A stretch of DNA of 25,377 nucleotides from the IMG/VR virus record IMGVR_UViG_3300037245_001138, positions 1 through 25,377 of that record, one strand, 5' to 3'. This stretch comes from a virus. Numbering within the stretch: position 1 is the stretch's first letter; each line of letters starts with the position of its first letter. The notes beneath the pieces were generated by a model that had not been told where the DNA came from, did no database searches, and worked only from the letters and a program-made list of their open reading frames with translations. Shown in pieces: positions 2,574 through 24,302 of the stretch. The position numbers were made by a program, and so were the translations under genes.

Positions 2574-2789
2574 TCATGCCGGGGAACGAACGCGGTGAGC
2601 GCCTTGGGCTGGCACGTCAAGCGAGAGAAACCGCTTGACTTCGGTCCGTGGAATCAGCCAGGGGCCATCATCCAATTTGTCGCCCTCAATGACGCCAGTG
2701 GCGATCAACTCACGTACCCAGCGTTCGGAAATACCCATCTTTGTGGCTGCCTGGGCTACGGATAAAAATGGAATTGCTTTTTTGCTCAT
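2574..2789 (-). CDS. excisionase-family (HTH_17/MerR-like) DNA-binding protein, apparently leaderless
   Basis: The 71-residue protein MSKKAIPFLSVAQAA... has the layout of small excisionase/HTH_17 proteins. A 'FLSVAQAATKMGISERWVRE' helix-turn-helix occupies about residues 8-27. A wing-like LIATGVIEGDKLDDGPWLIP follows, ending in 'RTEVKRFLS', the usual last helix. Such proteins bind DNA as excisionases, directionality factors or small regulators. The frame is open far upstream, but the ATG at 2789 is chosen because it begins the domain and sits six bases after the -10 box of a near-consensus promoter, so the mRNA probably starts at the ATG with no ribosome binding site. No integrase is seen in the window, so an excisionase role cannot be confirmed. 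Confidence 0.8.
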   Translation of the reverse strand: MSKKAIPFLSVAQAATKMGISERWVRELIATGVIEGDKLDDGPWLIPRTEVKRFLSLDVPAQGAHRVRSPA

Positions 2790-2792
2790 GGC

Positions 2793-2824
2793 GACAGTAT
2801 ACCGACGGCGGAAGTATCTGTCAA
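2793..2824 (-). promoter_or_regulatory. near-consensus sigma70 promoter with overlapping inverted repeat (operator)
   Basis: Minus strand: perfect -35 TTGACA (2824-2819), 17-base spacer, -10 TATACT (2801-2796). The ATG of the HTH gene follows after six bases (2789). An inverted repeat GACAG...CTGTC (2822-2818 and 2797-2793, 20 bases between) covers both boxes. Its arms extend imperfectly as GACAGATAC/GTATaCTGTC. This is the geometry expected for a dimeric repressor that blocks RNA polymerase. Confidence 0.68.
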
Positions 2825-2843
2825 CCGTGTGCAGTGAGCGCAT

Positions 2844-2869
2844 AAAAATGGCCGGTCCGAAAACCGGCC
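2844..2869 (-). terminator. intrinsic terminator
   Basis: Minus strand stem GGCCGGT (2869-2863), loop TTTCGG, ACCGGCC (2856-2850), then ATTTTT. A clean seven-pair GC-rich stem with a U tract. It lies between the upstream structured region and the promoter of the leaderless HTH gene, and would insulate that promoter. Confidence 0.75.
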
Positions 2870-2908
2870 TAACCCGCTTACCGACATGCGGGGTGGTAGT
2901 CATAAAAT

Positions 2909-2950
2909 AGCCCGGACCTGCGTGTTGCCACGTCGATTCAGATCCGGGCT
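2909..2950 (-). terminator. possible first terminator of the structured region
   Basis: Minus strand AGCCCGGA (2950-2943) pairs with TCCGGGCT (2916-2909) around a 26-base loop that itself can form a GCAA tetraloop hairpin. CTATTTTATG follows. The loop is long for a terminator, so a conditional terminator is as likely as a constitutive one. Confidence 0.4.
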
Positions 2951-2993
2951 CGGGTTCAATTCCCACACAGGTCTGAAGGCCTTATACACCCAC

Positions 2994-3021
2994 AGCATAG
3001 CAGCAACAGTCGGTCTGTCAA
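2994..3021 (-). promoter_or_regulatory. sigma70 promoter with extended -10, overlapping the XRE gene stop codon
   Basis: Minus strand: perfect -35 TTGACA (3021-3016), 16-base spacer, -10 TATGCT (2999-2994) preceded by TGC, an extended -10 (TGn). The -35 box contains the TGA stop of the XRE gene. Expected start is near 2987, at the beginning of the structured non-coding stretch. Confidence 0.55.
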
Positions 3022-3353
3022 GACAAGTCAACTAGGATAAACACCTTGCACCCGAGCCCCTTTGCCAGCTTCCGTAGCGTCGCTAGCTTCGGGCCGGCCG
3101 GGTGCCGATCGCGCTCCCAGTCTGCAATCTGCGTCTGGCCGACGCCACATGCCACCGCAAGCTGGAATTGAGTCATTCCAGCTCGGTCGCGGGCAGCAGC
3201 AATCCGGCCGCCTGGCGTGGTTGGTTTATTTCTCGTTTCCCCCAACCGCAAAGCCCGTCTAGCCAGGCGTCTCTTGGCTTGATGCTGTTGCGTCATCTCG
3301 GCTTTCTTCCGGGCGGCCTTGATGCGACCGCCCGGGGTTGTTGGTTTTTTCAT
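3018..3353 (-). CDS. XRE-family HTH transcriptional regulator with duplicated N-terminus
   Basis: The 111-residue protein has a Cro/C1-type HTH domain in its second half: GGRIAAARDRAGMTQFQLA (about 48-66), recognition region VGQTQIADWERDRHPAG (71-87) and LATLRKLAKGLGCKV (90-104). This is the arrangement of XRE repressors that bind operators in phage and plasmid switches. The first 40 residues hold an extra copy of the domain start: residues 2-22 match 42-62 at 16 of 21 positions, period 40, but lack the recognition helix. The ATG at 3353 is chosen because it overlaps the upstream stop (ATGA) and begins at the first repeat. The gene lies in the small regulatory block and may control the nearby promoters; this is inferred. 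Confidence 0.85.
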   Translation of the reverse strand: MKKPTTPGGRIKAARKKAEMTQQHQAKRRLARRALRLGETRNKPTTPGGRIAAARDRAGMTQFQLAVACGVGQTQIADWERDRHPAGPKLATLRKLAKGLGCKVFILVDLS

Positions 3354-4065: not shown

Positions 4066-4094
4066 ACTATATCGTAAAATGACGAGGAAAACAA
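4066..4094 (-). promoter_or_regulatory. putative sigma70-like promoter for the leftmost gene block
   Basis: Minus strand: -35 TTGTTT (4094-4089), 17-base spacer, -10 TATAGT (4071-4066). The -10 is one base from consensus, the -35 is weak. The -35 lies in the loop of the 4073-4116 hairpin and the spacer contains its left arm, so terminator and promoter overlap. Start of transcription near 4059 would serve the 93-residue gene. Confidence 0.38.
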
Positions 4095-4116
4095 TAGCCA
4101 TCCTCGTTATTTTACG
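4073..4116 (-). terminator. long two-sided hairpin at the late/early block boundary
   Basis: CGTAAAATGACGAGGA (4073-4088) pairs with TCCTCGTTATTTTACG (4101-4116): fifteen Watson-Crick pairs and one G-T position, with a 12-base loop. A-rich bases on one side and T-rich bases on the other give a U-rich 3' arm on either strand, the form of a bidirectional intrinsic terminator. It lies after the last tail-side gene (stop at 4175). The rest of the gene-free stretch 4117-4174 shows only a run of seven G/C and no motif. Confidence 0.6.
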
Positions 4117-21395: not shown

Positions 21396-22139
21396 TCATG
21401 CGGTCGAGAATAGCGGCATACGCGATTCTTCCGCGTCCAAGCGGTCATTTGCGATCTGGAAGAACTTCTCGTCTTTCTCGATGCCGATGAACTTCCGCCA
21501 GGTGTTCCTGCAAGCAACTCCCGTCGTTCCCGATCCCATACAGAAATCTAGCACCGTGTCGCCTTCTTTCGTGTAGGTGCGAATCAGATACTCCATCAAC
21601 GCTACTGGCTTCTGGGTTGGGTGTAGTCCTGAACCAACGCTCTTGAATTCCAAGAGGGTTCGCGGGTAGTCCGTAACTTCCTGCACATAAGGTAGACAAT
21701 GGACAGCACCATAGTTATCGCTTTGTGTGCCTGTGCGTACAACCGTATTGTATGCTATTGTTCCTTGCGGATTGTAAGTTGGCTGGGTCTCGTAGAATAT
21801 TAGAACGTCTTCAGTGTTTCCCATGGGCATGCGTTTTGCATTCAACCGACCCGCCGGCTTCGATTTCTTCCATACCCACGCATACCTGAGCCATGGCAGT
21901 CCGGAGGCCCCGAGTATTGTTGTAAACGGCTGAGCAGCAGTGAGAACTATAGGAGTAGTCGGCTTCTTCAACCGCTCCAAACATGCCCACATCTCCGGTA
22001 AGGGTATCACGCTATCCCACTTGCAAGCAGTTATTCCGTAAGGTGGATCGGCCAGCACTAGGTCAATGCTCCCAGGCTCAAGTGTCGGCATGACCTCAAG
22101 ACAATCACCTCGATATAAACGAACGCTGTCTTTGTCCAT
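21396..22139 (-). CDS. beta-class DNA methyltransferase (N6-adenine or N4-cytosine)
   Basis: 247 residues. Catalytic motif IV DPPYG is near the N-terminus (31-35), and the SAM-binding motif I DFCMGSGTTG is at 198-207. HPTQKP (173-178) is the motif typical of this class, and the order IV before I defines the beta class. The motif DPPY favours N6-adenine, although N4-cytosine enzymes with DPPY exist. No target-recognition domain is separable by eye and no restriction endonuclease is next to it, so it is probably an orphan that masks sites from host restriction or marks phage DNA. It stands between fibre genes and a connector gene, likely as a moron. Confidence 0.92.
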   Translation of the reverse strand: MDKDSVRLYRGDCLEVMPTLEPGSIDLVLADPPYGITACKWDSVIPLPEMWACLERLKKPTTPIVLTAAQPFTTILGASGLPWLRYAWVWKKSKPAGRLNAKRMPMGNTEDVLIFYETQPTYNPQGTIAYNTVVRTGTQSDNYGAVHCLPYVQEVTDYPRTLLEFKSVGSGLHPTQKPVALMEYLIRTYTKEGDTVLDFCMGSGTTGVACRNTWRKFIGIEKDEKFFQIANDRLDAEESRMPLFSTA

Positions 22140-22814: not shown

Positions 22815-24302
22815 TTACTCGTGGTATTTAATGAACGCATAGACGCTATCAGCAATCTGCCAGTAGCCTGTGTTTTCGGGATGAACACCATTGGTCTGCT
22901 TGATGTAGGTGTCGGTATTTCGCGCGTTGAACGCCGTCGCCGCTGCCTTCATGTTGTTATTGATGTCCAGCCCAAGGTGTATCGGCACTACGTAAACACC
23001 CCTGCTCCGCATCGTGTCGTTGTCATACGTCGCGATGAGTCGTTCTTGGAGGAGTTGGTTGTTTCGACGATACCGATCGTGGCTTTGTGAGGTCCCGTAA
23101 CTGCTACCGAAACTGTCTTGTGACGTGGACGGAGGAATCGTTATTCCGATTCCAACGCGAACGCCACTGACGTCCCCCCTTACTGTAGTTGCTGCCGGAG
23201 AGGCCGATGTGTCGATCATGCTTTCGATATCGGCCTCGATCGAGTCCAGGACCGTGGCGACTTCTGAATCCGACGCTGCACCGAAAACGTCGTTTATCCC
23301 CAGAAAGAAAAGCACCCAATCGTCAGCCGTCATCATCGTGAACGAATTATCGATCAGGTACTGCCCGAAGTCCCATGTACCACTACCGGAAATCACCGGT
23401 TCGCTTGCCGGGTCTGTTAGATGTTCGTTGTACGTCCAACCGCTCACGGACTCATGATCCGCCGACCTTGACCCACTATCGGAATCGTTCTCTGTCGTAT
23501 TCCTGGTGCCTCGAAGCGTAGCCGTCATGGCGTCGCCATCGAAGAGGTTCATAAACTCGGCCATCCAGTTGTCGGTCGAGTCTCCGAACACGATGATATT
23601 CCGCGATTCGCCGGTTCCCGCCGTGCTTTTGGCAAGAGCCACAGTGGTACTTGCGGCGCTTGTCAATGTTGTTTCCCCGGCAGTAAATGCCAAGCCTAAC
23701 GCAATCGTTGTCGTGTCACCGGATGGGATGTCGCTGTCCTCTGGGGCAAACACCCAGCCACGTTCGTCCTGTGCTCCACTGCTTGGATTGGTGCTTAGGT
23801 TGAATTCGATAATGTCTTCTGCTCTGGACCGAACGCAATTCGCGAAGTAGAGGTTGCACTCTTGACCGGCAACGGCATAGACGAAATCGGGGATGGCATG
23901 CGTTACGTCAACGGGCACCAGGACAAAATCCTCGAGGAAGAGATTGCGGTCGGTGTCGAGACGCACCACCACGTCATCGGCAGTTACGTCCGATGAGTCC
24001 TCTGTGTTATTTGCCAGAAGGACCAAGTCACCTCGACCGAAGCTGGTGGTCCTGATGTGTCCAATGCCCGTTTTGGCAGTTCCCACAACACTGGAAAATC
24101 CGATCCCGGTCAACGCTCCAACAGCCTGCCCACCGTTAACCAAAAATTGAATGCCATCGGTTTTGTTGCTGACGTGTGATCGTCCCACGCCGTCAGCTTC
24201 CTGTAGAATATACCCATCCGCCGTGGTAATGATACTGATACTGGTAAGATCCAGATCACCATCGGCGTTGAGTTGAATTCCGATTGGTATTCCGCTCGGC
24301 AT
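22815..24302 (-). CDS. tail fibre/tailspike-like protein with SGNH (GDSL) hydrolase domain (495 aa)
   Basis: Residues 1-230 are a beta-rich stem. From about 234 an SGNH domain follows: block I FGDS (catalytic Ser242), block II VSGWTY (Gly288), block III LGIND (Asn337) and block V NGVHPENTGY (catalytic His474). The Asp three residues before the catalytic His is replaced by Asn471. SGNH hydrolases remove acetyl or acyl groups from surface polysaccharides, here probably from the host envelope during adsorption. The ATG at 24302 follows the previous stop by a few bases, with GGGG in front. The enzyme fold is secure, the substrate is not. Confidence 0.85.
   Translation of the reverse strand: MPSGIPIGIQLNADGDLDLTSISIITTADGYILQEADGVGRSHVSNKTDGIQFLVNGGQAVGALTGIGFSSVVGTAKTGIGHIRTTSFGRGDLVLLANNTEDSSDVTADDVVVRLDTDRNLFLEDFVLVPVDVTHAIPDFVYAVAGQECNLYFANCVRSRAEDIIEFNLSTNPSSGAQDERGWVFAPEDSDIPSGDTTTIALGLAFTAGETTLTSAASTTVALAKSTAGTGESRNIIVFGDSTDNWMAEFMNLFDGDAMTATLRGTRNTTENDSDSGSRSADHESVSGWTYNEHLTDPASEPVISGSGTWDFGQYLIDNSFTMMTADDWVLFFLGINDVFGAASDSEVATVLDSIEADIESMIDTSASPAATTVRGDVSGVRVGIGITIPPSTSQDSFGSSYGTSQSHDRYRRNNQLLQERLIATYDNDTMRSRGVYVVPIHLGLDINNNMKAAATAFNARNTDTYIKQTNGVHPENTGYWQIADSVYAFIKYHE

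Follow-up and report, generated by a model that had tools for sequence, protein, structure and literature searches.

The window analysed here is a 25.4-kb virus record (25,377 nucleotides), and the stretch of interest lies on its minus strand, where the gene for an XRE-type regulator (3353-3018) is followed, after a gap of 228 bp, by the gene for an HTH_17 protein (2789-2574). Reading in the direction of these genes, the gap contains a promoter-like site (3021-2994), two terminator-like hairpins that we call T1 (2950-2909) and T2 (2869-2850), and a second promoter-like site (2824-2796). The initial annotation had placed a candidate RNA between two regulatory genes, and both neighbors have Pfam matches, the HTH_17 protein a PHROGs match as well. 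The nearest relative found for the window is the virus record G022 (IMGVR_UViG_3300009788_002550), which is collinear with it. The features are as follows.

3018-3353, minus strand: XRE/Cro-type regulator, 111 amino acids (PF01381, E = 4.7e-13)
3046-3059, minus strand: XRE coding stretch GGGCUCGGGUGCAA, complementary at 13 of 14 positions to candidate RNA segment 2959-2946, UUGAACCCGAGCCC
2994-3021, minus strand: sigma70-like promoter by sequence match, TTGACA-16-TATGCT, with TG before the -10
2904-2987, minus strand: candidate noncoding RNA of about 84 nt with predicted start and end (minimum free energy -33.1 kcal/mol, z = -3.3)
2937-2977, minus strand: H1, a possible early hairpin of UUCAGA (2977-2972) with UCUGAA (2942-2937), which excludes T1
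2915-2973, plus strand: tRNA-like stretch with 6 of 7 acceptor pairs and a T-loop, TTCAATT, closed by three G-C pairs
2909-2950, minus strand: T1, a 12-bp helix (2950-2939 with 2920-2909) plus a GCAA-capped 4-bp hairpin, then AUUUUAUG
2842-2869, minus strand: T2, GGCCGGUU-UUCG-GACCGGCC followed by AUUUUUAU, with a CCCGC/GCGGG hairpin just upstream; found in G022 too
2796-2824, minus strand: near-consensus HTH_17 promoter, TTGACA-17-TATACT, from the whole-window scan
2574-2789, minus strand: HTH_17 protein, 71 amino acids, excisionase-like (PF12728, E = 4.4e-8; PHROGs excisionase phrog_1840, E = 1.2e-5)

The upstream promoter is just as first described, with a TTGACA -35 element (3021-3016), a 16-nt spacer and a TG-extended TATGCT -10 element (2999-2994), and its -35 element overlaps the XRE stop codon (3020-3018). 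Under an E. coli-like promoter model, a scan of the whole 25-kb window found two promoter-like sites with a score of at least 11 when 0.13 would be expected from shuffles. Both lie within the XRE/HTH_17 gap and both are in gene orientation. As a sequence match that is rare against shuffles, the first of them qualifies as a putative promoter of the candidate RNA's own.

The minimum-energy fold of the candidate RNA is the 12-bp T1 helix with its GCAA-capped hairpin; folded as an 87-nt RNA, it reaches a z-score of -3.3, and 0 of 200 shuffled sequences are as stable. The T1 hairpin itself (-26.0 kcal/mol) comes third in strength among the minus-strand hairpins with a U-tail in our scan of the window, although a shuffled window yields about 3.4 U-tailed hairpins at or below -20, both strands counted. 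T1 qualifies as a predicted intrinsic terminator, with a short U-tract (AUUUUAU). Earlier in transcription, H1 may form, as it is the minimum-energy fold of partial transcripts of 52 to 60 nt (-13.3) and is replaced by T1 by 76-80 nt when this one sequence is folded. A reading frame (2966-2574, minus strand) runs without a stop across T1 and T2 into HTH_17, probably by chance: a clear ribosome site is missing, and the HTH domain does not need the extra codons to be complete.

Comparison with G022 separates the two hairpins. The T2 hairpin with its tail, ATTTTTAT, is an ordinary terminator-like element, and it recurs after the homologous XRE gene of G022 (23007-23052, 87% identity), again with the CCCGC/GCGGG hairpin upstream; the top stem pair, U-G in the window, is U-A in G022, so that pairing is preserved. 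A pattern search for T2 returned 12 matches, with G022 as the sole homologue among them. The stretch from the promoter to T1 has no counterpart behind the XRE gene of G022, and here the window is longer by roughly 80 bases, which in a comparison of two genomes may be a gain or a loss. T2 follows the XRE gene in both genomes and is therefore most likely the XRE operon's older terminator; since the promoter-T1 stretch is missing from G022, the candidate RNA gene would correspond to the extra piece of about 80 bp in the window phage. Of the original proposal of one RNA with two terminators, both hairpins exist, but they do not appear to form a single unit, as T2 is common to the two genomes and the extra piece contains T1 alone.

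With a good promoter and, behind it, a strong stop for transcription, the stretch may give rise to a short RNA of some 84 nt. Our preferred reading, which we hold tentatively, is a promoter-terminator unit that makes such an RNA from the 3' region of the XRE gene in a phage of a probable Planctomycetota host. The promoter match, T1, T2 and the absence of the stretch from G022 are seen in the sequences themselves; transcription, which we infer, would start near 2987 from the sigma70-like promoter at the XRE stop codon and end after T1 near 2904. Read-through past T1 would end at T2, giving about 145 nt, and RNAs from the XRE operon, too, would stop at one of the two hairpins; the added piece would thus sit ahead of the older operon terminator. 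Backed by promoter and terminator statistics, a small RNA gene is plausible as a single-sequence candidate. Points against it are that the collections searched yielded no homologue, that the T1 U-tract is short and that the promoter model is an E. coli-like one while the host is suggested by terminase relatives alone. The arrangement resembles that of bacterial small RNAs from 3' regions with an internal promoter, where a coding gene has a promoter in its last part and is followed by a terminator, as XRE is here. Should it be transcribed, phages of Planctomycetota would have a candidate regulatory RNA, of a kind on which our one literature search turned up little.

Tandem terminators are frequent behind operons, and T1 and T2 might be no more than such a pair for the XRE operon, with a weak or silent promoter-like site and no functional separate RNA. 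This explanation, which we consider possible if rather unlikely, draws on the occurrence of T2 in G022 and on the frequency of comparable hairpins in shuffled windows, and it is countered by a promoter match that is rare for the window.

What the proposed RNA might do is the least certain step of the preferred reading. Its strongest ungapped helix with any other minus-strand place in the window is with the 3' coding end of XRE (-27.3), an energy that 27 of 300 shuffled RNAs (9%) match within the operon; across the window, repeats like this 13/14 complement within 120 nt number 0.8 in shuffles. T1 is still preferred over the XRE pairing in a longer transcript (-60.0 versus -55.5), and no target stood out by total duplex energy. 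We regard the pairing as suggestive only, and it is doubtful that the RNA binds the 3' end of XRE mRNA through UUGAACCCGAGCCC and reduces synthesis of the regulator, as lambda OOP does with cII. Acting in trans, the pairing would resemble OOP on cII (PMC5869508); in cis, it would compete with T1. Roles in lysogeny are established for phage small RNAs, OOP included (PMC12197685; PMC5869508), and the candidate shares with OOP (pO-oop-tO) its short length, its position in a phage regulatory region, an apparent promoter and intrinsic terminator of its own and a regulator mRNA whose 3' end it may pair with (PMC5869508). However, OOP is transcribed opposite to cII with an overlap of 52 bases, whereas the candidate lies on the same strand as XRE, is not antisense to the regulator's 3' end and offers a 14-nt complement with one mismatch.

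The P4 CI RNA and the C4 antisense RNAs of P1 and P7 are small phage immunity RNAs that lie on the strand of their operon and have complementary stretches within it. The candidate is likewise small, on the operon's strand and complementary to a stretch of the operon, but unlike these RNAs it matches no Rfam family. The search thus agreed with the first impression that no known family is represented, and no covariance model, C4 antisense RNA included, matched at its gathering score. Below threshold, the CCCGC/GCGGG hairpin with T2 scored about 17-18 bits against SorX/SorY and anti-hemB, where gathering scores are 46.6-111, a likeness that amounts to a generic two-hairpin outline. We also considered the RNA as a mimic of CRISPR repeats and rejected this, because a search for a host CRISPR repeat like GTGTGGGAATTGAAC gave scattered matches, at most two per genome per strand, and no arrays.

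On the plus strand, the tRNA-like stretch raises the question of whether 2915-2973 is what remains of a tRNA-Glu gene or of a phage attachment-site core, in which case the ten-pair repeat noted in the initial annotation would derive from an acceptor stem. The T-loop fits the consensus, and the stretch resembles the 3' end of planctomycete tRNA-Glu: bases 2951-2973 agree with one such gene at 21 of 23 positions, with a local alignment score of 41 compared with 31 for the best of 2,000 shuffles, and tRNA-Glu genes (isotypes by ARAGORN) come close to this 3' end, including the unusual T-stem in one genome (G412). Among the weak Rfam matches, the tRNA-like mascRNA had the most bits, at full length (19.5 bits, E = 0.12), and the adjacent HTH_17 protein is excisionase-like. 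Against this, the matching tRNA-Glu was picked after a search of 382 genomes and T-loops are universal; a reversed-acceptor control hit 4 of 164 genomes, compared with about 9 of the same genomes for the real acceptor; and a comparable T-arm and acceptor domain turns up in 3% of shuffled windows. ARAGORN detects no cloverleaf, the T-arm and acceptor alone being present and the upstream half lacking a tRNA fold, and none of the scanned window proteins could be recognised as an integrase. We therefore judge a relic improbable. A further idea, that host tRNA-Glu is the target during infection or lysogeny of a minus-strand RNA complementary to about 24 nt of its 3' half, seems very far-fetched. 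Several planctomycete tRNA-Glu(TTC) genes (L157-L162) have T-stems with one or two outer pairs apparently mismatched (TCGGG or TAGGG opposite CCCAC).

Folding of the one sequence shows that mutually exclusive helices exist in the candidate RNA, and a switch is possible on paper, with three segments capable of alternative pairings. Such a switch could belong to a leader in which the 3021 promoter drives HTH_17 through two conditional terminators, T1 being controlled by H1 or the ten-pair helix. The promoter does share the strand of HTH_17, whose start lies about 198 nt further downstream, and H1 precedes T1 in partial transcripts, but HTH_17 has a near-consensus promoter of its own, T2 would require a second switch and there is no Rfam match, all of which make an attenuated leader quite improbable.

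The remaining claim, a functional H-type pseudoknot in B-A-B'-A' order, is highly unlikely. Both helices can be drawn, as the ten-pair repeat (2973-2964 with 2924-2915, one U-G) and the eight-pair repeat (2950-2943 with 2916-2909) are present, but B' and A' share bases 2915-2916, and A extends into the longer T1 helix, which the initial annotation did not describe. Repeat B is little more than chance, with 61 inverted repeats of its type seen in the window compared with 49.6 expected in shuffles, or 0.29 per 150 nt. The ten-pair and T1 helices compete because both use one 3' strand, and a nested fold that keeps the ten-pair helix falls short of the T1 fold by 2.6 kcal/mol at best (-30.5 versus -33.1). 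A pseudoknot of both would have about -26 before any loop penalty and would, by this crude sum, be roughly at least 7 kcal/mol less stable. The useful outcome is twofold: there is no further need for the pseudoknot, and T2 seems to be part of the older XRE operon.

No homologue of the candidate RNA turned up in searches that covered phages, plasmids and viral contigs as well as about 390 planctomycete genomes: blastn against phages and plasmids gave nothing meaningful, a DNA search of 392 planctomycete genomes gave no match at 0.001, and the exact pattern of the tRNA-like part had no match in viral contigs. A single-sequence covariance model returned one match in 294 genomes (E = 0.0018 per genome, with about 0.5 expected), a terminator behind a sulfatase-like gene that we treat as chance.

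By terminase, relatives of the window at 72% are G022 and a second genome, G019. The best bacterial terminase matches include Pirellulales and Phycisphaerae metagenome-assembled genomes (MAGs) and also one alphaproteobacterial MAG, so a planctomycete host, suggested by terminase relatives alone, is probable and not proved. The window also encodes a phage DNA methylase (21396-22139, minus strand; PF01555, E = 1.1e-27). XRE is the last gene of an operon, and upstream of that operon lies a dyad, CGTAAAATAACGAGGA...TCCTCGTCATTTTACG (4073-4116, minus strand), which is mostly kept in G022 and is likely its operator-promoter. At the other end of the gap, the HTH_17 start codon at 2789 coincides with the transcription start predicted from the 2824-2796 promoter. 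This leaderless layout, with the start at the ATG, is predicted for the downstream regulator both in the window (2824-2789, minus strand) and in G022 (about 23063-23093), where the downstream gene itself differs, being a second XRE gene in place of HTH_17.
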